Source: Burkholderiaceae bacterium (GTDB taxonomy: Bacteria; Pseudomonadota; Gammaproteobacteria; Burkholderiales; Burkholderiaceae_C). From it: a DNA stretch of 12,191 nt. Location: contig JAIRRE010000067.1 of assembly GCA_031256125.1 (NCBI GenBank), positions 1-12,191 on the forward strand. The letters run 5' to 3'. Below are positions 1-12,191 of this stretch, one piece after another (positions within the stretch are counted from its first letter, which is position 1; each line of letters begins with the position of its first letter). The position numbers and the translations under genes were made by a program. The notes beneath the pieces are model-generated. The model was not told where the DNA came from. It saw nothing but the letters and a program-made list of their open reading frames with translations, and ran no database searches.

Positions 1-1
1 C

Positions 2-511
2 GGCTGGTTTGCTTCGGGCGGATTCGACGGCTGGAATTTCAGCCCCGGCCTATGGCCCGGTTTGTGGGCCGGGCTGAAGGCACTCTTGCTGCCCGCGCTG
101 GCGCTGGCGGCGGTGCAGGGCGCGATTCTGGCGCGCTTTACCCGGTCGGCGCTGCTGGAAGCGCTGCGCGAGGACTACGTGCGCACCGCCCGCGCCAAGG
201 GGCTACCGCCGCGCCGCGTGCTATGGCGGCACGCGCTGAAAAACGCGCTGATCCCCGTGGTGACGGTGATGGGGATGCAGTTCGCGGAACTGCTGGCCGG
301 TGCCATCGTGGTGGAAAACGTGTTCACCTTGCCGGGGCTGGGACGGCTGGTGTTCCAGAGCATCGCCAACCGCGACTTGATCGTGGTGCAGAACACGGTG
401 CTGGTACTAGCGAGTCTGGTGGTGCTAGTCAATTTCGGGGTCGACGTGCTGTATGCGGTCATCGACCCGCGCATGTCGCTCCAACGGCAAAGGCGCGGCG
501 GCCATGCGTAG
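2..511 (+). CDS. ABC importer permease, DppB/OppB type (3' part, 5' end outside window)
   Basis: This is an inner-membrane permease subunit of a peptide/nickel-class ABC importer, with 169 C-terminal residues visible. The frame is open from base 2, so the true start lies upstream; the TTG at 62 is internal. The conserved cytoplasmic loop that docks on the ATPase (EAA-type motif) is clear: EALREDYVRTARAKGL followed by RHALKNALIPVVT. After it come FAELLAGAIVVENVF and PGLGRLVFQSIANRD, both usual in the DppB/OppB/GsiC family, and a last hydrophobic segment ending with YAVIDPR. The stop overlaps the start of the next permease by 8 bases (ATGCGTAG at 504-511), as expected for a co-translated pair. 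The substrate cannot be told from a permease; dipeptide, oligopeptide, glutathione and nickel are all possible. No binding protein or ATPase gene is in the window; if present they lie upstream. Family assignment is firm. Confidence 0.93.
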   Translation, partial: GWFASGGFDGWNFSPGLWPGLWAGLKALLLPALALAAVQGAILARFTRSALLEALREDYVRTARAKGLPPRRVLWRHALKNALIPVVTVMGMQFAELLAGAIVVENVFTLPGLGRLVFQSIANRDLIVVQNTVLVLASLVVLVNFGVDVLYAVIDPRMSLQRQRRGGHA

Positions 512-1334
512 AGGCGGGCCTGGAATGGCGGCATCCCCGGCACTGGTCATTGGCGCAGCCTTGACCGCCGCACTGTTGCTGGCGGTGGCGGTCTCGCTGG
601 TGTGGACGCCCTGGCCGGTAGCCGGCATCGACATGGCCGGGCGCCTGCTGCCGCCGGGCAGCGCCGGCCATTGGCTGGGGACCGACGCTTACGGGCGCGA
701 CGTAGGCTCGCTGCTGCTCGCCGGGGCGCGTGTTTCGCTGTGGGCCGGCGTGGTCGCGGTGGCGATGGGTCTGGTCATGGGCGCGGGATTGGGTCTGATC
801 GCCGCCGTCCGCACGGGCTGGGTGGATGAGTTCATCATGCGCTGCACCGACTTTGGCTTTGCCTTTCCGGCGCTACTCACCGCCATCTTGCTGGCCGCCG
901 TTTATGGGCCGGGGCTGACAGTGGCCATCGTCGCCGTTGGTCTGTACAACATCCCGGTGTTCGCGCGCGTCACCCGCGCGGCGGCGGGGCAGATATGGCA
1001 CCGCGACTACGTGCGCGCCGCGCGCGCGCTGGGCCGGGGTACAACGGCCATCACTGTGCACCACGTGCTGCCCAACATCCTGCCGGCGCTTACCGTGCAA
1101 GCCACTATCCGCTTTGCCATTGCCATCCTGGCGGAGGCGGCGCTGTCTTACCTGGGTCTGGGCGCGCAGCCCCCACAGCCCAGTTGGGGCCGGATGCTGG
1201 CTGAAGCGCAAACGTTGATGTTCGATGCCCCCTGGCTGGCCGTTTGGCCGGGGCTGGCGATTGCGCTGGCGGTGCTGGGGCTGAACCTGCTAGGGGACGG
1301 GTTGCGGGATGGTTGGGATCCGAAACTCAAATGA
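504..1334 (+). CDS. ABC importer permease, DppC/OppC type
   Basis: Second permease of the same importer, 276 residues, a typical length for DppC-like proteins. Residues 56-66 read HWLGTDAYGRD, a hallmark of this subfamily just before the first transport-domain helix. The EAA-type loop lies at about 168-195 (DYVRAARALG, then HHVLPNILPA), followed by AALSYLGLGAQPP and SWGRML, also characteristic. About six hydrophobic segments are visible, including an N-terminal one at about 12-32. I chose the ATG at 504, which overlaps the upstream stop and has AAAGG ten bases before it; an ATG at 525 (shorter by seven residues) is a reasonable alternative. The gene ends 12 bases from the convergent murJ stop, leaving no room for a terminator between them. 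The ATPases expected for such a system are not downstream, so they would have to be upstream or elsewhere. Confidence 0.95.
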   Translation: MRRGGPGMAASPALVIGAALTAALLLAVAVSLVWTPWPVAGIDMAGRLLPPGSAGHWLGTDAYGRDVGSLLLAGARVSLWAGVVAVAMGLVMGAGLGLIAAVRTGWVDEFIMRCTDFGFAFPALLTAILLAAVYGPGLTVAIVAVGLYNIPVFARVTRAAAGQIWHRDYVRAARALGRGTTAITVHHVLPNILPALTVQATIRFAIAILAEAALSYLGLGAQPPQPSWGRMLAEAQTLMFDAPWLAVWPGLAIALAVLGLNLLGDGLRDGWDPKLK

Positions 1335-1346
1335 ATCCAGCGTAGG

Positions 1347-2900
1347 TCAACGCCGCAACAATTCCTTCACCCGGGTTCCGCACGCCATCAGCGCACCAAA
1401 ATAGATCGCCGCCGCCGCAACGACGGTCAGCACCAGCCATAGCACGCGCGACCACGGCGTGACGTGCAGCCAGTCGATACGCCCGCCCATCCAGGCCAGA
1501 AAGATTGTCATTACCGCAGTGGCCACGATGACCTGTGCGATGAAGCGCCTCCAGCCCGCGCCGGGCCGGTAACTGCCACGCTGAATCAGGCCGGTGAGCA
1601 GCCACCCGGCGTTGATGAGCGCGGCCAGACCGATGGACAGCGTCAGTCCGGCGTGCGCCAACCACGGCACGAACAGCACGTTCAAGATTTGCGTCGCAAC
1701 CAGCACCGCAATGGCAATCTTGACCGGCGTACGGATGTCCAGGCTGGCGTAATAGCCTGGCGCCAGCACTTTGACCGCGATCAGCCCCGGCAACCCCAAG
1801 CCATAGCCTGCCAGCGCCAGCGCCACTTTGCCGGTGTCCGCGCCGGTAAATCGCCCATGTTGAAACAGTGTGGCGATCAGCGGCTGGCCGAACGCCAGCA
1901 GCGCCGCTGCGCACGGCAGCGCCAGCAGCAGCACCAGCCGCAGGCCCCAATCGAGCAGTTGCGAATAGCGCGCGTCATCCTCCGCCGCCCGCGCCGCAGC
2001 CAGTTGCGGCGTGAGCACCACGCCCAGCGCCACGCCCAGCAGCGCGGTCGGGAATTCCATTAGCCGGTCGGCGTAGTAGATCCATGTCACGCTGCCGTGG
2101 GTCAGATGCGAGGCGATTTGCGTATTGATGAGCAGCGAGAGTTGCGCCACGCCCACGCCCAGCAATGCGGGCGGCATCAAGCCCAGCACCTGCCGCACGC
2201 CTGGGTCGCGCCAGGCCGCAACCATACGCCTGCCATCCAGCGCGATGCGCGGCAGCAGCGACAGGCGCAGCAGCGCCGGAATCTGCACCGCCAGTTGCAG
2301 CACGCCGCCCAGCATCACGCCAGCGGCCAGGGCGTAGATCGGCTCAATGCCCATGCGAGCGAACCACGGCGCGCCCCACAGCGCCGCCGCGATCATTGCC
2401 AGGTTGAGCAGCACCGGCGTGGCCGCCGGTACCGCGAAATGGCGCCACGTGTTGAGGATGCCCGCCGACAGCGCCACCAGTGACATGCAGCCGATGTAGG
2501 GAAACATCCAGCGCGTCATGTACACGGCGGCGGCGAAACTGTGCGACCCCAGCCCGCTGGCCAGCAGCCACACCAGCAGCGGCGCGGCCAGCACACCGAC
2601 AATGCAGGTGATGACCAGGGTCCAGGTCAGCGCCGTCGCTACTGCGTCGATCAAATGCCGGGTTGCCTGTTCGCCGTTTTTCTCGCGCGAGCGCGCCAGC
2701 ACGGGCACGAAGGCCTGACTGAATGCCCCTTCGGCAAACAGCCGTCGCAGCAGATTGGGAATGCGGAAAGCAACATTGAAGGCGTCGGTCAAGCCACTCA
2801 CGCCAAAAACCGAGGCCATGAGCAAATCGCGCACCAGCCCCATGATGCGCGAAACCAGTGTGATAAGCGAAACCGTAAAGGTGGATTTAAAGAGGCTCAA
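1347..2900 (-). CDS. murJ: MurJ (MviN) lipid II flippase
   Basis: A polytopic inner-membrane protein of the MOP superfamily that moves lipid II to the periplasmic face during peptidoglycan synthesis. Its 517 residues match the usual length of about 510. The N-terminal block (SRIMGLVRD, TDAFNVAFRIPNLLRR, FAEGAFSQAFVP) is canonical. R18, R24, D39 and R52 fall at the same numbers as the functional charged residues of E. coli MurJ, and YADRLMEFP carries D278-R279, the counterpart of the E. coli D269-R270 pair. The start is TTG at 2900: an in-frame TGA lies two codons upstream and the next methionine (residue 20) would remove the essential N-terminus. No strong Shine-Dalgarno precedes it. It follows the DUF212 gene by 33 bases on the same strand, so it is probably co-transcribed with the lipid-linked arabinose genes. 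It looks like the housekeeping MurJ, but a paralogue serving another lipid-linked sugar cannot be excluded. Confidence 0.95.
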   Translation of the reverse strand: MSLFKSTFTVSLITLVSRIMGLVRDLLMASVFGVSGLTDAFNVAFRIPNLLRRLFAEGAFSQAFVPVLARSREKNGEQATRHLIDAVATALTWTLVITCIVGVLAAPLLVWLLASGLGSHSFAAAVYMTRWMFPYIGCMSLVALSAGILNTWRHFAVPAATPVLLNLAMIAAALWGAPWFARMGIEPIYALAAGVMLGGVLQLAVQIPALLRLSLLPRIALDGRRMVAAWRDPGVRQVLGLMPPALLGVGVAQLSLLINTQIASHLTHGSVTWIYYADRLMEFPTALLGVALGVVLTPQLAAARAAEDDARYSQLLDWGLRLVLLLALPCAAALLAFGQPLIATLFQHGRFTGADTGKVALALAGYGLGLPGLIAVKVLAPGYYASLDIRTPVKIAIAVLVATQILNVLFVPWLAHAGLTLSIGLAALINAGWLLTGLIQRGSYRPGAGWRRFIAQVIVATAVMTIFLAWMGGRIDWLHVTPWSRVLWLVLTVVAAAAIYFGALMACGTRVKELLRR

Positions 2901-2933
2901 GAAATCACTTTAAAAAAACGTGCTGTGCCAACG

Positions 2934-3371
2934 TCAAGGCCAAAAATGGTTGAGCAGCCAAGCCACCACAAAGCCGGTAACGATACCGGCGGCAAGTTCG
3001 ATGCGCGTGTGCCCCATGCGCTCGCGCAGCCGGAGGGCGTTGGGATCCCCGGCCTGCAAACGATTGAGCGCCTGCGCTTGCCGCCCCACCTGGCGGCGCA
3101 GGCTAGCCGCGTCCAGCACCACGATAAAGGCCAGCGTCAGCGCCACGCCAAAAGCCGGGTGCGCCACGCCTTCGCGCAGCCCGATCAGGCTGGCCATGCT
3201 GGCGACGATGGCGCCGTGATTGCTGGGCAAACCGCCATAGCCGATCAACCCGAACGCCAGCCGCCCGGCGCGCAGACTGTTGATGGTGAACTTGAGCGTA
3301 CCTGCCACCAGCCACGCCGCAAACGGCGTTGCCACATAAACCCAAGATGCCGCACCGGTCATATCCGTCAT
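2934..3371 (-). CDS. Divergent PAP2 family membrane protein (DUF212, YuiD-like)
   Basis: A small membrane protein of 145 residues matching the DUF212 'divergent PAP2' family. Visible motifs are GGLPSNHGA at 46-54 with H52, the block LDAASLRRQVGRQA at 86-99 with D87, and MGHTRIEL at 119-126 with H121. These correspond to the GG-P-S-H, D-A-x-x-x-R-R and GHT blocks of the family. About four hydrophobic segments are present. The family is named for distant similarity to PAP2 lipid phosphatases; members lack a well established reaction. The gene begins 16 bases after the stop of the UbiA-like prenyltransferase, where mycobacteria have the PAP2 gene Rv3807c, the proposed phosphatase for phosphoribosyl-decaprenyl phosphate. 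I infer the same step here. ATG 3371 has AGAGAG ten bases upstream; ATG 3362 is possible. Family is well supported, function is inference. Confidence 0.85.
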   Translation of the reverse strand: MTDMTGAASWVYVATPFAAWLVAGTLKFTINSLRAGRLAFGLIGYGGLPSNHGAIVASMASLIGLREGVAHPAFGVALTLAFIVVLDAASLRRQVGRQAQALNRLQAGDPNALRLRERMGHTRIELAAGIVTGFVVAWLLNHFWP

Positions 3372-3387
3372 GGTATCAACGCTCTCT

Positions 3388-4263
3388 TCAGCCCCACAGC
3401 CGCACAGCGCACAGCACGATCCACGCCAGCACGGTCAACAGCAACTGCCAGTCGGTCAGCAGCGTGTCGGTGGGCGATTCACCGCCGCCTTTGCGCTCCA
3501 CGATGTACCAGTAGCGAAATAGCCCAAACAGCACCAGAGGAATGGTGACGATCAGTTCCCGGTGAGCCGACATTACGAACAGGCTGTAGAACACCAGCGC
3601 GCCCGTGGCCGACATTTCGGCGTAGCGATCGATCAGCGGCAGCGAATATTTGCCCAGCACCTCACGCGCGTCGCTGCCCGATTGCACCAGTTCCTGCCGG
3701 CGCTTGACCGCCGCCAGATACAGCGCCAAACACAGCGTGGTGATGAACATCCACGACGACACCGATACCGCCAGCGCCTGAGCGCCCGCGATCATGCGCA
3801 GCACAAAGCCGCTGGCGATAACAAAGATGTCGATTACCGGCTGGTGCTTGAGGCCAAAGCTGTAGGCCAGGTTGAGCAGCAGGTAAATGCCGATCACCGC
3901 CAGCACGCGCGGCAGTGCGAACGCGGCGGCGATCAGGATAGCGTAAAGAAAAATCAGCAACGCCGCCGCCAATCCCGGCGTGACCGCTCCCGAGGCCATA
4001 GGACGCTTGTGGCGTTTGGTGGGATGGGCGCGGTCGCGTTCGATGTCGCGCCAGTCGTTGACCACGTAAGTGGCCGACGAGGCGACGCAAAACAGCCCCA
4101 TTGCCAACACTACGGCAACCACTGCATGGAGCTGCCCGAACTGCCCGGTAAACAGCAGTGGCGCAAACACGAAGCCGTTCTTGATCCACTGGCGCGGACG
4201 CAGCAGACGGATCACCCCTTGCAATCGGGCACCATGAGAAGGTTGACTATGATCGGCCATCAT
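3388..4263 (-). CDS. UbiA-family prenyltransferase, decaprenyl-phosphate phosphoribosyltransferase-like (DPPR synthase)
   Basis: Integral membrane prenyltransferase of 291 residues. Members of this branch (Rv3806c in M. tuberculosis) transfer 5-phosphoribose from PRPP to a polyprenyl phosphate, the first step toward lipid-linked D-arabinose. The first Asp-rich motif is at about 69-88: N69-D70, D73, D77, then H80-P81 and KRHKRP, the DPPR-type signature rather than that of quinone or heme prenyltransferases. The second motif region is at 134-161 (YSFGLKH, D145, FVLRMIAGA), and LRPRQWIKN at 21-29 is the usual N-terminal box. Multiple hydrophobic segments fill the rest. The start may be either of two consecutive ATGs (4263 or 4260); no Shine-Dalgarno is evident. 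It is the first gene of a minus-strand group with the DUF212 gene and murJ, and is divergent from gtrA-dprE1-dprE2. This context makes the DPPR role much more likely than ubiquinone synthesis. The polyprenyl chain length is unknown. Confidence 0.9.
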   Translation of the reverse strand: MMADHSQPSHGARLQGVIRLLRPRQWIKNGFVFAPLLFTGQFGQLHAVVAVVLAMGLFCVASSATYVVNDWRDIERDRAHPTKRHKRPMASGAVTPGLAAALLIFLYAILIAAAFALPRVLAVIGIYLLLNLAYSFGLKHQPVIDIFVIASGFVLRMIAGAQALAVSVSSWMFITTLCLALYLAAVKRRQELVQSGSDAREVLGKYSLPLIDRYAEMSATGALVFYSLFVMSAHRELIVTIPLVLFGLFRYWYIVERKGGGESPTDTLLTDWQLLLTVLAWIVLCAVRLWG

Positions 4264-4291
4264 CGCTGAGAAATATATTTAATTTTGCCTG
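4264..4291. promoter_or_regulatory. Short A+T-rich divergent intergenic region, probable bidirectional promoter element
   Basis: Only 28 bases separate the ATG of the UbiA-like gene (- strand) from that of the GtrA-like gene (+ strand). The centre is a perfect 10-bp palindrome at 4271-4280 (AAATATATTT), so TATATT occurs on both strands as a -10-like hexamer (4274-4279 on +, 4277-4272 on -). No convincing -35 lies at the right distance: a TTGACT at 4243-4248 is 25 bases from the plus-strand hexamer. If these hexamers are used, both transcripts would begin a few bases before their start codons, and neither gene shows a Shine-Dalgarno. The element could equally be an operator half-site pair. Low to moderate confidence. 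Confidence 0.35.
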
Positions 4292-4708
4292 ATGCGCATT
4301 GTGTTGCTCTATGGCCTGTTTGCCCTGCTGGCCACCGCCGTCAACATCGGCGCGCAGGATTTGTGGCTGCGCGCCTGGCCCGGACCGTGGCCCATCGTCA
4401 CGTCGATGTGCGCCGGTACAGCGGCGGGACTGGCGGTCAAATACGTGCTCGACAAGCGCTACATCTTCCGCTACCAGACCAGCGGAGCGCTGCATGATGG
4501 CAGAACTTTCGTGCTTTATACCGTCATGGGCCTGGTAACCACGGCCATTTTTTGGGGTTTTGAGTCCGGCTTTCAAACGCTGTTTGCTACGCGGGGGATG
4601 CGCTATCTGGGCGGCGTGATCGGTCTGGCAATCGGCTACGCAGCCAAATACCGGCTCGACAAGCATTTTGTTTTCACCCCGCCGCGCCAGGTTTGTAACC
4701 GTGTCTGA
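4292..4708 (+). CDS. GtrA family membrane protein (Rv3789-like)
   Basis: A 138-residue protein with four predicted membrane segments (about 3-22, 32-52, 72-95, 104-122), the size and topology of the GtrA family. The signature K-Y-x-L-D-K-x-x-x-F occurs twice, at 50-59 and 119-128, at the cytosolic ends of the second and fourth segments, which points to an internal two-fold repeat. GtrA proteins are associated with polyprenyl-linked sugars; Rv3789, at the same place before dprE1 in M. tuberculosis, has been proposed either to flip decaprenyl-phosphoryl-arabinose or to anchor arabinan enzymes. The ATG at 4292 is the first possible start and lacks a Shine-Dalgarno. The stop overlaps the GTG of the next gene by 8 bases (GTGTCTGA at 4701-4708). 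Family certain; role here inferred from context. Confidence 0.9.
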   Translation: MRIVLLYGLFALLATAVNIGAQDLWLRAWPGPWPIVTSMCAGTAAGLAVKYVLDKRYIFRYQTSGALHDGRTFVLYTVMGLVTTAIFWGFESGFQTLFATRGMRYLGGVIGLAIGYAAKYRLDKHFVFTPPRQVCNRV

Positions 4709-6053
4709 ATCACCGGCCATGATCCCCGTCGAGGCTTGGGGACGGCTAACACGCCAGCCACACCGCTGGATCGCGCTGGCCGACCACGGCGACGCCCAAC
4801 CCATTGCCGACGCCATTGCGCACACCACGCCCGGCATTGCGCACGGCGCGGGGCGCAGTTATGGCGACGTGGCGTTGAATCCGCACGGTACGCTGTGGTC
4901 GGCACGCGGGCTGGATCGCTACGTGCGCTTTGACGCCACGACAGGTCTGCTCACAGCACAGGCAGGGGTGATGCTGCGCGACATTCAGCGCACTTTAGTG
5001 CCGCACGGCTGGATGCTGCCAGTCACGCCTGGCACGCAAATCGTCACCGTCGGCGGCGCGATTGCCAACGACGTGCACGGCAAAAATCACCACGCCGCGG
5101 GAAGCTTCGGCCACCACGTGCGGCGCATCCGGCTGCTGCGCACCGAGGGACAAATTCGGGAATTGACGCCCGCAGCCACCCCGCAGGCGTTCGCTGCCAC
5201 GGTGGGCGGCCTGGGCTTGACCGGCGTCATTCTGGAAGCCGACTTGCAACTGACGCGCATCGGCGGTCCGTGGCTGGATACCGAAACGCTGCCGTTTGGC
5301 ACGCTGGCGGATTTTTTCGCGCTCGCCGCCGCCTCCGAACAACAGCACTGGCCCTACACCGTGGCGTGGATTGATTGCCTCTCCGCCCGCACCGGGCCGG
5401 GTACCGGTTCAGGGGCGCTGCGTGGCATCTTCGAGCGCGCCCGGCCAGCGTCCGGCATCGACCGTCCGGCACCACGACCGCACCAACTGGGTATGCCCTT
5501 TACGCCACCGTTGTCGCTGGTCAACGCGCCGTCGTTGCGCCTGTTCAACCTGGCGTATTTCCACCTCCACCGGATCAAGGCCGGTCATGCGATCCGGCAT
5601 TACGAAAAATTTCTCTACCCGCTCGACCACATCCGCGACTGGAACCGCATGTATGGCCCGCGCGGCTTCTACCAATACCAGTGCGTCGTGCCCCAGCCCG
5701 GCGGCGAAGCGGCCATTGCTGCGCTGCTGGCAGCCATCGCCGCGTCGGGCGAAGGGTCGTTCCTGGCCGTGCTCAAAGTGCAAGGCGACATGGGGCCTCC
5801 GGGAATGCTCAGCTTCGCGCATCCGGGCGTCACGCTGGCGCTGGACTTTCCCAACCGAGGCGAGCGCACATTGCGCCTATTCGATCGGCTCGACGCCATC
5901 GTTGCCGACGCGCGCGGACGCATCTACCTGGCCAAGGATGCGCGCTGGCCGCGTGCGCGCTTCGAGGCCGCCTACACCCGCCTGGCCGAATTTTTGCCCC
6001 ACCGCGATCCGGGCATCAGCTCGGCTCTGTCGCGGCGGCTGATGGGTTACTAA
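4701..6053 (+). CDS. dprE1: DprE1-like polyprenylphosphoryl-beta-D-ribose 2'-oxidase (FAD)
   Basis: FAD-dependent oxidase of the VAO/ALO fold, 450 residues (the mycobacterial enzyme has 461). It oxidises the 2'-hydroxyl of lipid-linked ribose to the keto intermediate. Colinear motifs: GAGRSYGD at 49-56, the PGT...VTVGGAI segment, DVHGKNHH with H126 (mycobacterial H132), AGSFGHHVR, ATVGGLGLTG, LYPLDHIRDWNRMYGPRGFYQYQ, and IYLAKDARW with K412 (mycobacterial K418, needed for activity). The position of mycobacterial Cys387, the target of benzothiazinones, is Ala380 here (codon 5838-5840) within GVTLALDFP. I chose GTG 4701, which overlaps the gtrA stop and has AGG nine bases upstream; ATG 4719 is an alternative, and a TTG at 4668 would lie deep in gtrA. 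It is followed by dprE2 after 23 bases. Assignment is very strong; the lipid carrier is unknown. Confidence 0.94.
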   Translation: MSESPAMIPVEAWGRLTRQPHRWIALADHGDAQPIADAIAHTTPGIAHGAGRSYGDVALNPHGTLWSARGLDRYVRFDATTGLLTAQAGVMLRDIQRTLVPHGWMLPVTPGTQIVTVGGAIANDVHGKNHHAAGSFGHHVRRIRLLRTEGQIRELTPAATPQAFAATVGGLGLTGVILEADLQLTRIGGPWLDTETLPFGTLADFFALAAASEQQHWPYTVAWIDCLSARTGPGTGSGALRGIFERARPASGIDRPAPRPHQLGMPFTPPLSLVNAPSLRLFNLAYFHLHRIKAGHAIRHYEKFLYPLDHIRDWNRMYGPRGFYQYQCVVPQPGGEAAIAALLAAIAASGEGSFLAVLKVQGDMGPPGMLSFAHPGVTLALDFPNRGERTLRLFDRLDAIVADARGRIYLAKDARWPRARFEAAYTRLAEFLPHRDPGISSALSRRLMGY

Positions 6054-6076
6054 TCAATCTTCCTCAAAGGATTGCC

Positions 6077-6850
6077 ATGAACAACGACACGACACCGCGA
6101 CACATCGCCATCGTCGGCGCCACCTCCGGCATGGCCGAGCATTGCGCGCGGCTGTGGGCCGCGCAACAACAGCCCACGCGCTTTACCCTGATCGGTCGCC
6201 GCCCCGAGGCGCTGGCGCGTATCGCCGACGATTTGCGGGTACGCGCCCCCGCCGCCACGATCACGGTGCTGGAGCAACGGGATGCCCGCGACCCGGCAGA
6301 CATCGAACGCATCGCCAACCAAACCCATGCCCTGGCGCCAGTGGACGTGGCCCTGATCGCCCACGGCCTGCTGCCAGACCAGTTCACCACGCAAGACGAT
6401 TTAGTGCGCTGCGCCGAGGCGCTGACCATTAACGGCGATTCGCCGGTGCTTTACGCGGCGGTGTTCGTGCGGCACATGGTGGCGCGCGGCGCGGGCACGC
6501 TGGCGGTCATCGGCTCGGTCGCCAGCGACCGTGGCCGCAAAAGCAACTACACCTACGGCGCGGCCAAGGCGATGGTCGATGTCTATATGCAGGGCCTGCA
6601 ACACCGGTTGGCGGTCGAAAAAAGCCCGGTGCGCGCGATCCTCGTCAAACCTGGCCCCACCGACACGCCCATGACGGCGCACCTCAAGGCCAAAGGCCAA
6701 CGCCTAGCACCGGTGGAACAGGTAGCCGCCGGCATCCTGCGCGCCATCGACCACGGCCAGCCCGTGGCGTATCTACCGGCGCGCTGGCAACTCATCATGG
6801 GCGTGATTCGGCATATTCCTCGCGGGGTTTTCAATCGGATCGATATTTAA
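6077..6850 (+). CDS. dprE2: DprE2-like decaprenylphosphoryl-2-keto-D-erythropentose reductase (SDR)
   Basis: Short-chain dehydrogenase of 257 residues that reduces the keto product of DprE1 to lipid-linked D-arabinofuranose, completing the 2'-epimerisation. The N-terminal nucleotide-binding motif reads GATSGMAEHCARLWA. The catalytic set is S147 (IGSVAS), Y160 and K164 (YGAAK) with the usual 13-residue Ser-Tyr spacing, followed by KPGPTDTPM. The C-terminus (RHIPRGVFNRIDI) closely resembles that of the mycobacterial DprE2 and is not a general SDR feature, which supports this subfamily. The ATG at 6077 has AAGG six bases upstream. It directly follows dprE1, and the two enzymes act as a pair. It is the last gene of the plus-strand group; an inverted repeat starts 2 bases after its stop. 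Confidence 0.93.
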   Translation: MNNDTTPRHIAIVGATSGMAEHCARLWAAQQQPTRFTLIGRRPEALARIADDLRVRAPAATITVLEQRDARDPADIERIANQTHALAPVDVALIAHGLLPDQFTTQDDLVRCAEALTINGDSPVLYAAVFVRHMVARGAGTLAVIGSVASDRGRKSNYTYGAAKAMVDVYMQGLQHRLAVEKSPVRAILVKPGPTDTPMTAHLKAKGQRLAPVEQVAAGILRAIDHGQPVAYLPARWQLIMGVIRHIPRGVFNRIDI

Positions 6851-6851
6851 C

Positions 6852-6954
6852 CTGGTGTACTGTCTCGCAAATATCTCCACATGAAATCACGCTTTTCCCT
6901 GACGCGAAATTCATCAATTTTATTTTGTTCAGCCATTTGCAAGACAGCACACTA
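6852..6954. repeat. Imperfect 21-bp inverted repeat flanking 61 bases
   Basis: The left arm (6852-6872) and the reverse complement of the right arm (6934-6954 region, matching from 6935) agree at 18 of 21 positions; the core TGTACTGTCTCGCAAAT at 6856-6872 pairs with ATTTGCAAGACAGCACA. All three differences are transitions. The arms enclose A+T-rich sequence with no recognisable gene. No target-site duplication is obvious at the edges, and no T-tract follows either arm, so neither a mobile element nor a standard terminator is proven. It sits between the convergent 3' ends of dprE2 and the HARE/GIY-YIG gene and could be a bidirectional 3'-end structure or the remnant of a small non-autonomous element. 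Confidence 0.6.
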
Positions 6955-7093
6955 GAAACAGCTATTGGGCACATCAAGAGAATGTCGTCGGACATAGAAA
7001 TTTTCAGGCAGAATATTGACGGCCACCTTGGCCAGCATGGCTGCGCTCTTTGTCGCAAGGAATCCTTTATTCACCATGTTCCGAGAAGCCCAA
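6955..7093. other. Intergenic A+T-rich remainder between convergent genes
   Basis: No gene is recognised here. It contains overlapping short hairpins (GGCCA at 7021-7025 with TGGCC at 7029-7033, and GCCA/TGGC just after) that lack T-tracts. A 41-codon minus-strand reading frame (7077 to 6952) starts 16 bases after the nuclease gene stop, but its product resembles nothing known to me. The base composition matches the neighbouring nuclease gene rather than dprE2, so this gap probably arrived with that gene. Confidence 0.4.
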
Positions 7094-7891
7094 CTACAGT
7101 TTTTTAAGTGCTGCCTCAAGAGAAGTTCTTATTTTATTTTTTTGAATTTCAGGATCTTCATATTGAGTGAATTCGACACGTGAAAGATCGTCGCCGCGTT
7201 TGCGATTTTGTCGAGGCTCCAATGCCTCAATCAAAATAGCCTCAAGGGTTGGAATAATTTTTGTCGATTCATAATTAGAAGGGAAATCCCCTAATTGTCC
7301 ATTTTCCAATACAGGTAACAAACCAAACCATGAAAACCGATCCCACCGTACAGCCAGCCTATCCAAGGTGTGTTCATACAAACGCCGTCCCAAAGGACGA
7401 TCCGTCGTTCGCCCGATATAAATCACTTCCCGACTATCATAGAGCAAATAAATTCCTAATTGTTTATTGAAATCTACTGGAGTAGTCGAACCCAATTGTT
7501 GTACACCCAACAATTTAGGTGAGTAATTCCATTGAATTGCATTTCTTTGCCAAAACATACCAAACGAAGTAATAATGGCATATTGATCCTCATCATCTTC
7601 GGATGCTTCGATGGGTGGCGTCAATTTTCCCTCGACCATTGGTACTGCCTCCCTGGTTGCAGAACTCAACCCGAATGTTCCTTTGGTCACACGGATATAA
7701 GGCGATGATGCCCCATCGTGTTTAATCGAACAAGAAATTTGTGCATTGACGGTCGCAGCAGGCGTGGCGCCAAGATTCTTTCTTAACTGATCCGAAATTA
7801 TCTTTTCAGCTATTTCGTTGTAATGAAGTGGCACAGGAGAGGCAGCAAGCACCTTGTCAATCGCCTCACGCCAAGTCAACTCTTTAGCCAT
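7094..7891 (-). CDS. HARE-HTH domain protein with GIY-YIG nuclease domain
   Basis: A 265-residue two-domain protein. Residues about 4-75 (LTWREAIDKVLAASPVPLHY onward, ending YIRVTKGTFGL) form a HARE-HTH winged-helix-like domain, found in restriction-linked and DNA-binding proteins. After an acidic linker at about 95-103, the C-terminal part has a GIY-YIG nuclease core: GIY at 146-148, YIG at 158-160, R161, RRLYEH at 169-174, and E217 in PTLEAILIEAL followed by P-R-Q-N-R-K-R-G, the usual place of the metal-binding Glu. All expected catalytic residues seem present. ATG 7891 is chosen because GGAGG lies five bases before it; a GTG at 7909 would overlap guaB. The gene is much richer in A+T than its neighbours, which suggests horizontal acquisition. 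It follows guaB by 14 bases and may be read from the guaB transcript. Whether it acts in defence, repair or mobility is unknown. Confidence 0.85.
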   Translation of the reverse strand: MAKELTWREAIDKVLAASPVPLHYNEIAEKIISDQLRKNLGATPAATVNAQISCSIKHDGASSPYIRVTKGTFGLSSATREAVPMVEGKLTPPIEASEDDEDQYAIITSFGMFWQRNAIQWNYSPKLLGVQQLGSTTPVDFNKQLGIYLLYDSREVIYIGRTTDRPLGRRLYEHTLDRLAVRWDRFSWFGLLPVLENGQLGDFPSNYESTKIIPTLEAILIEALEPRQNRKRGDDLSRVEFTQYEDPEIQKNKIRTSLEAALKKL

Positions 7892-7896
7892 GAATG

Positions 7897-7901
7897 CCTC
7901 C
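7897..7901 (-). promoter_or_regulatory. Shine-Dalgarno GGAGG deciding the start of the HARE/GIY-YIG gene
   Basis: GGAGG lies five bases upstream of ATG 7891 and just after the guaB stop (7906-7908). It favours this ATG over the in-frame GTG at 7909, which would add six residues and overlap guaB. Confidence 0.75.
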
Positions 7902-7905
7902 AACT

Positions 7906-9468
<1,563 letters not shown>

Positions 9469-9993
9469 TTACAAAATTGCTTTCCGTGATTCGATCGCGG
9501 CGCGCAGAATTTCAAGCTTCTGGCTCACCGCCGGGAGATCGGCGCCGGTACGCGCCAGTTCCCGTAACTGCAAGGCTTGGCCCGCCATCGCCTCATCGGC
9601 GGCCATGAGGCGCGGGAGAAACTCGCGTTCGGCGCGGTGTCGCAACCACGTCGAGTCATTCTCTGGAACCGGCAAATGCCGGATCAACGTTTCGATCGCC
9701 TCGATGTCGCGGCTGACCTGTTCGACCTGCGCAATTTGGGCGCGCTCCTGTGCTCCCGGAAAGGGCACTTCGCGGCTCGGCGTGGGAATCAGGCGGCGGA
9801 TGGCCGCTGCCCGGCTACCCAGGGCGGCCCGCGAATCGCCCAGCAGCCCGCATACGCCATTGCGGATGAGCAGATCATCGGCCCGATCCTTGTTTTCCTG
9901 CCGATAGGCGTTGTACCCCCAGCCGGTGTAAAGATTGATAACCAGCGCCTTGAGTGCACCGGCATCGTCAATCGGGTTTGGTGTGGTTGTCAT
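9469..9993 (-). CDS. Unrecognised 174-residue helical protein next to SPFH gene
   Basis: I do not recognise this protein. It has no signal peptide or membrane segment. Residues 1-10 are polar, 11-50 contain an aromatic patch (INLYTGWGYNAY at 19-30), 54-72 are rich in Ala and Arg, and about 82-174 look mainly alpha-helical with charged heptad-like stretches (QVEQVSRDIEAIETLIRHL; AVSQKLEILRAAIESRK), so a coiled-coil or helical bundle is plausible. ATG 9993 is preceded by GGA six bases upstream. An in-frame ATG at 10029 would add 12 residues but lies in the loop of a strong hairpin. It follows the SPFH gene by 57 bases on the same strand, suggesting that the two work together. Base composition and codon use match the surrounding chromosome, so it is probably a real gene. 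Confidence 0.75.
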   Translation of the reverse strand: MTTTPNPIDDAGALKALVINLYTGWGYNAYRQENKDRADDLLIRNGVCGLLGDSRAALGSRAAAIRRLIPTPSREVPFPGAQERAQIAQVEQVSRDIEAIETLIRHLPVPENDSTWLRHRAEREFLPRLMAADEAMAGQALQLRELARTGADLPAVSQKLEILRAAIESRKAIL

Positions 9994-10016
9994 GGTTGAT
10001 CCAGACTGCTTGCGTG

Positions 10017-10037
10017 GCGAGCCGCGCATCGGCTCGC
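10017..10037. promoter_or_regulatory. Strong intercistronic hairpin between SPFH gene and downstream gene
   Basis: GCGAGCCG (10017-10024) and CGGCTCGC (10030-10037) are perfect 8-bp arms with a 5-base loop, and seven of eight pairs are G-C. It lies 13 bases after the SPFH stop. No T-tract follows on the minus strand, so it may stabilise the upstream message, cause partial attenuation, or control initiation: the alternative ATG of the next gene (10029-10027) is inside the loop. Confidence 0.55.
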
Positions 10038-10050
10038 TGCCATCAGAATG

Positions 10051-10905
10051 TTATTTTTTCGTCAATCCGGCGATACTGCCAGCGTCAACCGTTCCCAGCG
10101 TGCCGCCGCCAATCTGAAACGGCATTCCGGCGGCGGCATTCGGTGCGGATACCAAACCTTTGTCGGCCATCTTCAGCGCCAGATACATCCGGGCGGACTC
10201 AATTTCCGACATGCCGAAAGCCCGCAGCGAAATCAGCTCGCGCATCCGCGCGTCCTGCGGCATGATGAGCACCTTCACGTCGTTCAGATGCACGCCGTAG
10301 ATGTCGAGAAAATCGCCCAGATGGCCCTTGGCGAGGTCGATAATGTCGTGAATGTGCTCGTTGACCTGTTCCATCGGCGTGATCTGGACAATCTGATTGA
10401 TCGCCTGCTCGATGACCGGCCCCGCATAGGCCGTCAATTCCGCGATGGGAATCCGCTCACCGGCAAACGGCATGTGCGTGATGAGCTTGACGGCATCGTC
10501 CTTGGTGTCGATATGGACGTAGTAATCGACCGTGTATTCCATGATCGCCATCTCTTTGGATGTGGCGATACCCTTGTTCTGGGCCAGCAGCTTGCTGCGC
10601 TGGACATAGATGGCCTCGTACTGCCACGGCGAGTTTCCGCCGAAAAAGCCTTGCACGATATTGCCCAGAATCGGCTTGTCCGGCGTAATGATTTGATGCT
10701 GGCCGGTTTCATACACGTCCAGCACCGCACCGCGGCTTTTCAAGACGCAAAAATGGTTGGATTCGACGGTCAGGAGGGAACCTGACACGATACTGTTATC
10801 GGGATACTTCCAGGCCAGCGTATCCAGACCCATCACATCGCGGCCTTGATTGTCCAGCGTGCTGATAACTTGCCGCTGCAAGGCGCCACCTTGTCCGAAT
10901 GCCAT
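10051..10905 (-). CDS. SPFH/Band-7 domain protein (COG4260-like, YdjI-like)
   Basis: A 284-residue protein of the SPFH (stomatin/prohibitin/flotillin/HflK) superfamily, in the branch sometimes labelled 'virion core protein'. The SPFH core spans about 28-235: WKYPDNSIVSGSLLTVESN and VLDVYETGQHQIITPDKPIL at the beginning, YTVDYYVHIDTKDDAVKLI in the middle, then a long helical part ending in ISLRAFGMSEIESARMYLALK. There is no obvious N-terminal membrane helix, as usual in this branch, and the C-terminal zinc ribbon of many COG4260 proteins is missing; instead there is a short Gly/Ala-rich tail. Related proteins such as B. subtilis YdjI bind membranes and recruit PspA-type proteins. ATG 10905 has GGAAAG seven bases upstream. 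The unrecognised gene downstream is probably its partner. Family well supported; cellular role unknown. Confidence 0.85.
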   Translation of the reverse strand: MAFGQGGALQRQVISTLDNQGRDVMGLDTLAWKYPDNSIVSGSLLTVESNHFCVLKSRGAVLDVYETGQHQIITPDKPILGNIVQGFFGGNSPWQYEAIYVQRSKLLAQNKGIATSKEMAIMEYTVDYYVHIDTKDDAVKLITHMPFAGERIPIAELTAYAGPVIEQAINQIVQITPMEQVNEHIHDIIDLAKGHLGDFLDIYGVHLNDVKVLIMPQDARMRELISLRAFGMSEIESARMYLALKMADKGLVSAPNAAAGMPFQIGGGTLGTVDAGSIAGLTKK

Positions 10906-10934
10906 ATATTTTCTTTCCAGATTAAAGCGTCCGC

Positions 10935-10940
10935 ACTATA
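10935..10940 (-). promoter_or_regulatory. Possible -10 hexamer for the SPFH gene
   Basis: TATAGT on the minus strand, 29 bases before the SPFH ATG, matches five of six bases of the sigma-70 -10 consensus. No good -35 is present at 16-18 bases, so the call is weak. Confidence 0.25.
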
Positions 10941-11131
10941 GACCGGCGGCCAATGCCGTGACTAAAAAATAGCCACTCCAAGATGATCTCACAAGTCAAT
11001 GCCTGCGTCATTCATTTTTTTGCAAATCGGCAGTACGCTAACACCCTGCATCGCCGGAGGCACATTGCCGATGGCGGTCATCCGCAAGGCGCGTTCACGC
11101 CTCGGGCAATGCCGCACGGCACAGATCGAAC

Positions 11132-11137
11132 TATGAT
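11132..11137 (+). promoter_or_regulatory. Possible -10 hexamer for the GMC oxidoreductase gene
   Basis: TATGAT lies 32 bases before the ATG at 11170, at a plausible distance for a short leader. No recognisable -35 is found at the expected spacing. The rest of the 264-base gap (10906-11169) shows no gene, only weak repeats such as ATTGCC/GGCAAT. Confidence 0.25.
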
Positions 11138-11169
11138 GGCCTTTCACGGATATTCGAGGAGACAACGCC

Positions 11170-12191
11170 ATGAACGAGACCCGTTGCGATTACCTGGTTA
11201 TCGGCGCAGGCACGGCGGGGGCGTTGATGGCCAACCGCCTGAGCGCCGATGCGCGCCGCCGCGTGTTGTTGATCGAAGCTGGTGGTAAGGATGACTACCT
11301 GTGGATTCATATCCCTGTCGGCTATCTGTACTGCATCGGCAACCCGCGCACCGACTGGCTCTATCAGACTGAACCGGACGCGGGGTTGAACGGACGGCAA
11401 CTGCGTTACCCGCGCGGTAAAACGCTGGGCGGCAGCTCCAGTATCAACGGCATGATTTACATGCGCGGCCAGTCGCGCGATTACGACCAGTGGGCCACGC
11501 ACACCGGCGATGAAACCTGGCGCTGGGATAACGTACTGCCCGTTTTCAAGCAGCATGAAAACCATTGGCTGGGCGACGCGGGGCAGTCCCCGGACGCTGA
11601 ATTTGCCCGCTTCCACGGCCACGGCGGCGAGTGGCGGGTGGAGCCGCAGCGTTTGCGCTGGGACATTCTGGACGCCTTCGCCACCGCCTGCGAGCAGGCC
11701 GGCATACCGCGCAGCGCGGACTTCAATCGCGGCAACAACGAAGGCGTGGGGTATTTCCAGGTCAACCAGAAACGCGGCTGGCGCTGGAACAGCGCCCGCG
11801 CTTTTTTGCGGCCCGCTTGCCAGGAGCGGCCCAACTTTACTTTGTGGACTGGCGCGCAAGTCATGCGCTTGCTGATCGAGCGCGACAGCGGCGGCGCGTT
11901 GCGCTGCACCGGCGCGCAGGTGTGGACTGGCGGCGAGATGGTCTCGGTACATGCCGCCGCCGAGGTATTGCTGTGCGCGGGCAGCATAGGTTCGCCGCAA
12001 TTGCTGCAACTTTCCGGCATCGGCCCTGGCGCGCTACTGGCTCAACACGGCATCGAAATCGCGGCGGATTTGCCCGGCGTGGGCGAAAACCTGCAAGACC
12101 ATTTGCAGATCCGCGCGGTTTACAAGATCCAGGGCGCGCCCACGCTCAATGTGCTGGCCAATTCCTGGCTGGGCAAGGCGCGCATCGGGCT
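11170..12191 (+). CDS. GMC family FAD oxidoreductase (choline/alcohol dehydrogenase-like), 3' end outside window
   Basis: The first 340 residues of a glucose-methanol-choline family flavoprotein; complete members have about 530-560, so roughly 60 percent is visible. The Rossmann motif VIGAGTAG has G12, G14 and G17, with E36 after RRVLLI as the ribose-binding acid. The first GMC signature (GKTLGGSSSING at 83-94, then MIYMRGQ) and the second (GSIGSPQLLQLSGIG at 271-285) are both present, followed by LPGVGENLQDHL. The catalytic C-terminal His/Asn region lies beyond the window. ATG 11170 has GAGGAG eight bases upstream. The gene is divergent from the SPFH gene. BetA-type choline dehydrogenase and AlkJ-type alcohol dehydrogenase share these features, so the substrate cannot be assigned. 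No betaine aldehyde dehydrogenase or BetI-like regulator is next to it in the visible part. Confidence 0.94.
   Translation, partial: MNETRCDYLVIGAGTAGALMANRLSADARRRVLLIEAGGKDDYLWIHIPVGYLYCIGNPRTDWLYQTEPDAGLNGRQLRYPRGKTLGGSSSINGMIYMRGQSRDYDQWATHTGDETWRWDNVLPVFKQHENHWLGDAGQSPDAEFARFHGHGGEWRVEPQRLRWDILDAFATACEQAGIPRSADFNRGNNEGVGYFQVNQKRGWRWNSARAFLRPACQERPNFTLWTGAQVMRLLIERDSGGALRCTGAQVWTGGEMVSVHAAAEVLLCAGSIGSPQLLQLSGIGPGALLAQHGIEIAADLPGVGENLQDHLQIRAVYKIQGAPTLNVLANSWLGKARIG

Follow-up and report, generated by a model that had tools for sequence, protein, structure and literature searches.

The closest described relatives of the locus reported here are the mycobacterial decaprenyl-phosphoryl-arabinose (DPA) pathway and a group of Gram-negative systems. 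For Pseudomonas paraeruginosa pilins, the available parts of PMC12369383 and PMC11841053 describe a lipid-linked arabinose route, and the D-arabinofuranose pilin glycosylation cluster comprises PSPA7_6245-6251 plus TfpW (PMC12369383, available parts); the donor route itself is already in print for Pseudomonas. The available sections of Kelly 2024 (PMC11127046) set out a general Gram-negative pathway for lipid-linked pentofuranoses, with DprE1 and DprE2 homologues in the arabinose systems, a Pseudomonas phosphatase that is an enzyme in its own right and belongs to another structural family, and three-component GT136 systems. Here we examine five adjacent genes, encoding a DUF212 protein, a UbiA-type polyprenyl-phosphate 5-phosphoribosyltransferase (PRT, also termed PPPRS), a GtrA protein, DprE1 and DprE2, in a 12,191-nucleotide stretch (contig JAIRRE010000067.1, positions 1 to 12,191; the window, our contig C302) of a Burkholderiaceae bacterium assembly (GCA_031256125.1, our genome G000; 2.05 Mb, 365 contigs, 77.7% complete). 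The locus probably makes polyprenyl-phosphate-D-arabinofuranose, which a GT-C enzyme would later move to a surface acceptor.

In the proposed pathway, the PRT would transfer ribose-5-phosphate from phosphoribosyl pyrophosphate to polyprenyl phosphate, DUF212 would strip the 5'-phosphate, and oxidation by DprE1 followed by reduction by DprE2 at C2 would convert the lipid-linked ribose to arabinose. GtrA would aid transfer of the lipid-linked arabinose to the periplasm, where a GT-C enzyme would pass the sugar to its acceptor. The PRT, DprE1, DprE2 and GtrA, and the presumed order of steps, are shared with the mycobacterial DPA pathway; the window differs in having DUF212 for PAP2, no Emb or Aft gene, and alanine at the DprE1 position that we take to be C387, and it has no PAP2 gene (PF01569) beside the PRT, the mark of a mycobacterial-type locus. 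With the P. paraeruginosa cluster, as far as the available text of PMC12369383 describes it, the locus shares a Gram-negative setting and donor synthesis of the PRT/DprE type, whereas the window lacks the pilin-transferase cassette. The GT136 systems, in the available parts of PMC11127046, likewise use a UbiA-type PPPRS, a lipid-linked pentofuranose and a periplasmic GT-C; however, they employ a HAD phosphatase fused to the PPPRS and a MATE flippase, where the window has DUF212 and GtrA, and the 291-aa PRT of the window carries a UbiA match only.

Gene identities were examined by profile, structure and residue comparisons. The UbiA-type protein, taken for a phosphoribosyltransferase in an earlier reading made from the sequence alone, exceeded the cut-off of the curated family NF008978 (221.1 bits, cut-off 207) while remaining below those of two sibling models (NF008977, 213.7 of 234; NF008976, 173.7 of 474), and a quinone prenyltransferase was ruled out, with 22.5 bits for TIGR01474. 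Its closest solved structure is a decaprenyl-phosphate phosphoribosyltransferase (PDB 8j8j, E 4.8e-40), and it is 37% identical to a Nocardia PRT. Residues N69, D70, D73 and D77 of loop II were invariant across 90 of 90 aligned PRT rows; the four Asn/Asp residues of this loop are required for in vitro activity in ORF15, according to the available parts of Kelly 2024 (PMC11127046). DprE1 scored 336.6 bits against NF053785, under the cut-off of 500 (runner-up family, 45.7), matched PDB 4p8c and 4fdn at E ~2e-67, and retained the HGKNHH and AKD motifs. All 30 rows retained the positions that we take to be H132, K134 and K418 of the mycobacterial active site. Counting from ATG 4719, residue 374, presumably the column of the benzothiazinone-binding C387 of the mycobacterial enzyme, is Ala, as in 29 of 30 rows (Ser in the other). 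For DprE2, the unnamed SDR model NF005489 gave 219.8 bits (cut-off 267) and the DprE2 model NF053786 gave 140.7 (cut-off 250). Because these scores fall under the curated equivalog cut-offs, we use the names DprE1 and DprE2 for clear but sub-cut-off relatives and not for proteins that passed equivalog tests. The identification of these two enzymes from sequence alone thus stands in part: DprE1 fits its curated family best, while DprE2 fits NF005489 better than the model bearing its name. GtrA exceeded the cut-offs of NF037976 (181.7 bits versus 50) and PF04138 (34.8 versus 26.1); murJ, the neighboring gene, was not favored as the donor flippase because it exceeds the MurJ equivalog cut-off. 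Taken together, a PRT above its cut-off and clear relatives of DprE1 and DprE2 support the sequence-only reading of a lipid-linked donor pathway.

On the phosphatase step the sequence-only reading needed correction. It had set the DUF212 protein (PF02681, 104.3 bits versus a cut-off of 26.5) beside a mycobacterial pathway that includes Rv3807c, described in the available parts of PMC3229680 as a PAP2-superfamily phosphatase; we rejected DUF212 as the Rv3807c orthologue because the families differ. In the Nocardia locus the gene beside the PRT encodes a canonical PAP2 (PF01569), where the window has PF02681; a profile search detected no DUF212 in Corynebacterium glutamicum; and the stretch common to DUF212 and a PF01569-type protein was limited to 39 residues (E 0.018). 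The DUF212 protein shows PAP2-like histidine motifs, and 15 of the top 16 rows of a structural comparison were PAP2 or acid phosphatases, which is moderate as evidence of fold.

Its phyletic distribution followed that of DprE1. Among 29 genomes of the same genus, DUF212 was present in 8 of the 10 that were DprE1-positive and in 0 of the 19 that were DprE1-negative (Fisher p 1e-5, relatedness ignored). The two exceptions, G011 and G015, both carry a HAD-PRT fusion, identified by Pfam in G011 and in G015 by HAD and PRT profiles matching one frame, with a HAD profile built partly from these two sequences themselves. In the DprE1 tree the G011 and G015 sequences branch beside DUF212-type DprE1s (branch 0.26), and in the PRT tree their PRTs are set apart by a very long branch (6.27). 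Because the DprE1s are close while the PRTs are very distant, the half of the pathway formed by the PRT and its phosphatase seems to have been swapped as one block, DprE1 being kept. It is as if the HAD domain had taken the place of DUF212, and this exchange is the best indirect support in our analysis for DUF212 doing the job of the HAD. It also suggests, more generally, that this half of the pathway can be swapped with DprE1 retained.

Other results weigh against a dedicated DUF212 phosphatase. In the PRT tree, one set (support 99/68) takes in all 27 DUF212 rows together with 12 in which no DUF212 was seen, some of them in short stretches. In another set, the loci of four PRTs contain a HAD gene that is not fused to the PRT (one of these four was used in building the HAD profile). 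Among the remaining PRTs, which have neither gene, the DUF212 and HAD profiles found no phosphatase, and a Pfam scan of ten neighbors found none except one of the separate HADs. DUF212 might instead be a transporter or helper in a functional donor pathway, with a housekeeping phosphatase acting on the lipid-linked intermediate. Several loci with PRT and DprE1 have neither DUF212 nor HAD nearby, the fold evidence is moderate, and a Citrobacter enzyme whose HAD site was changed (D18A) still yields a little dephosphorylated product (PMC11127046, available parts). We nevertheless find this alternative doubtful: DUF212 adjoins the PRT and swaps with the HAD fusion inside one genus, no HAD match occurred in 23 DUF212 loci scanned (22 distinct, over limited stretches), and the histidine motifs and structural matches noted above would fit a phosphatase. 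Literature searches under DUF212, YuiD and divergent PAP2 turned up no function for DUF212 among the titles listed; dephosphorylation of polyprenyl-phosphate-ribose-5-phosphate offers a directly testable one. Since two Pseudomonas loci are DUF212-type, the Pseudomonas work of Harvey 2011 may have implied this assignment already.

No Emb, Aft or other transferase gene was found in the window, and the arabinosyltransferase is probably encoded elsewhere in the genome, as the sequence-only reading had proposed. A genome search for GT-C enzymes yielded one gene of a family that we call A, an open frame at G000:C216:6175-7719 between ORFs (open reading frames) of 369 and 314 aa, whose product has no Pfam or NCBIfam match and is our best candidate for the transferase. 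Its identity to the G002 copy is 40%, compared with 77-85% for the five pathway proteins of these two genomes. Fold was assessed on a model of the sister protein P0121, itself 40% identical to the own-genome copy: the eight Foldseek matches with E ≤0.001 were all GT-C enzymes, VIA rows 1-43 comprised GT-C transferases, oligosaccharyltransferases and one GPI transamidase subunit, and the model placed near ArnT, AftB and AftA. Profile comparison found no link between family A and PMT_2-type GT-Cs or family B (one run: probability 5%, E 0.0075, 65 columns), and a PDB sequence search returned nothing under E 0.2. Sequence comparisons having failed, the GT-C fold of family A is assigned from the structure model only.

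In sister species the interval between DUF212 and murJ holds differing GT-C genes. Families B and A lie there in G008 and family C in G013, each on one contig; in G002, family A follows DUF212 on a contig that stops short of murJ. In two genomes the arrangement is split over two contigs. In G014, DUF212 is followed by GtrII, and GtrII and A precede murJ; in G026, DUF212 is followed by B and two copies of A, and a fragment of A directly precedes murJ. Between the GT-C genes of G026 (L053, 3112-5373) are also two predicted, possibly exported proteins of 282 and 397 aa with no Pfam or NCBIfam match. Six of the 29 genus genomes (G000 included) have A, three have B, three have GtrII and one has C; all of these are DprE1-positive, and searches of the 19 that are DprE1-negative found none of the four families. 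When membrane proteins near related loci were tried as transferases, some turned out to be transporters or an acyltransferase-like protein. A further Burkholderiaceae metagenome-assembled genome (L069, 11310-12941) encodes a PglL-type protein glycosylation ligase (PF11846, PF15864) directly after DUF212.

These distributions prompt a broader proposal, that DUF212, a family that ranges from Bacillus to cyanobacteria, serves as the dedicated polyprenyl-phosphate-ribose-5-phosphate phosphatase of a widespread Gram-negative D-arabinose pathway, and that arabinosyltransferases from several unrelated GT-C families, including a new one, can replace one another at the site between DUF212 and murJ, varying the surface glycan between sister species. 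We regard the case for this two-part proposal as evenly balanced. The analysis names candidate arabinosyltransferases, among them the GT-C family without a Pfam or NCBIfam match for the own-genome copy.

The window itself, G005 and G027 have no GT-C gene between DUF212 and murJ, and the locus could be a relic that lost its GT-C gene from this site and whose donor goes unused. In keeping with such a loss, just 33 bp separate DUF212 and murJ, G005 and G027 have no GT-C of any of the four families, and G027 gave no GtrA or DprE2 match in the stretch fetched. Yet the five frames of the window are open, with GC content near that of their neighbors, and an open-frame GT-C A gene is present elsewhere in the same genome, which makes a relic distinctly improbable. 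In G027 (L031), where PRT, DUF212 and DprE1 are present, the murJ match is split over two frames. It is very unlikely that the locus handles a different pentofuranose, ribose for example, with another role for DprE1 and DprE2: although lipid-linked ribose and xylose systems occur in Gram-negatives (PMC11127046, available parts) and the DprE scores lie under their cut-offs, DprE1 and DprE2 co-occur in many loci, the DprE1 active-site residues are retained, and a related DPA locus, in Lampropedia, contains an AftB-like transferase.

Comparison with related genomes, a check proposed along with the sequence-only reading, showed that the five-gene set recurs; the arrangement is not chance because the identical set is found in other genomes, among them the Pseudomonas loci L064 and L077. 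G000 and 9 of 28 other genomes of the genus carried DprE1 relatives at 60-80% identity. A wider scan compared the PRT alignment with genome contigs, and the best 80 of at least 572 confirmed relatives were analyzed. Among the matches listed, the closest named relative was contig JAITMV010000141.1 of Burkholderiaceae bacterium isolate Pmx449_bin7 (the G002 contig), with an 85% identical PRT. At PRT identities of ≥53% there were 22 loci (one, L058, repeating G002), 16 with DUF212 beside the PRT and 20 with DprE1; in the other 58 (≤45%), DUF212, DprE1, DprE2 and GtrA were not detected with profiles limited in reach. One of the related loci, L070 of Comamonas koreensis, has a PRT-DUF212 pair beside a WsfD-like GT-C with no DprE1, DprE2 or GtrA match within 10-kb flanks, and could be a ribose-type system.

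Any impression that such loci are rare among Gram-negatives was corrected by an even sample of the class, in which 81 of 369 genomes had PRT-profile matches (E ≤1e-20), 12 of them window-like (>330 bits). Many weaker matches sit in frames of ~500 aa, perhaps HAD fusions. DprE1 or DprE2 lay within the stretch fetched at 22 of the 30 best PRT places. DUF212 was found in 6 of the 369 genomes, beside the PRT in 5; a phylum sample of 398 genomes added two above the cut-off, one beside a PRT (G477) and one with none within 8 kb (G699), a match below the cut-off (G493) being left out. Pooled, DUF212 was beside the PRT in 6 of 8 genomes. A plasmid search with the PRT returned 36 records at E 1e-20, every one below 60% identity. 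Judged from these homology searches, D-arabinose donor loci of this type are not rare in Gram-negatives, and because they occur in so many, D-arabinose may be under-reported on Gram-negative surfaces.

The frames, order and orientation of the five genes, in two divergent groups 28 bases apart, agreed with the sequence-only reading (Table 1). The minus strand encodes DUF212 and the PRT, and the plus strand GtrA, DprE1 and DprE2.

Table 1. Coordinates, strands and supporting evidence for the locus and its flank in the window.
Feature	Position	Strand	Evidence
murJ, housekeeping lipid II flippase; syntenic anchor outside the pathway	1347..2900	-	TIGR01695, 436.7 bits (cut-off 235.55)
Gap between DUF212 and murJ, 33 bp; site of GT-C genes in sister species	2901..2933		Read directly; neighborhood comparison
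DUF212 ("divergent PAP2") membrane protein, 145 aa; putative 5'-phosphatase of polyprenyl-P-ribose-5-phosphate	2934..3371	-	PF02681
PRT/PPPRS, UbiA-type polyprenyl-phosphate 5-phosphoribosyltransferase, 291 aa	3388..4263	-	NF008978 above cut-off; PDB 8j8j; N69, D70, D73, D77
Divergent intergenic gap, exactly 28 bp	4264..4291		Read directly
GtrA-family protein, 138 aa; putative flippase or accessory protein for the lipid-linked sugar	4292..4708	+	NF037976, PF04138
DprE1-like FAD oxidase, 444 aa from ATG 4719	4719..6053	+	NF053785; PDB 4p8c/4fdn; HGKNHH and AKD motifs
DprE2-like SDR reductase, 257 aa	6077..6850	+	NF005489 and NF053786, sub-cut-off; adjoins DprE1 in many related loci

For DprE1 the ATG at 4719 is the more likely start than the TTG at 4668, because GtrA ends at 4708. 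On the other flank, G008, G013, G005 and G027 have murJ on the side where it lies in the window. In GC content and third-codon-position GC (GC3), the five pathway genes closely resemble murJ and guaB. A PADLOC scan of three non-locus genes of the window, including one for a HARE-HTH protein at 7094-7909, gave no match. This HARE-HTH gene has a GC of 0.43 and a GC3 of 0.37, against ~0.65 and ~0.8 for its neighbors, which suggests that it was recently inserted between the locus and guaB.
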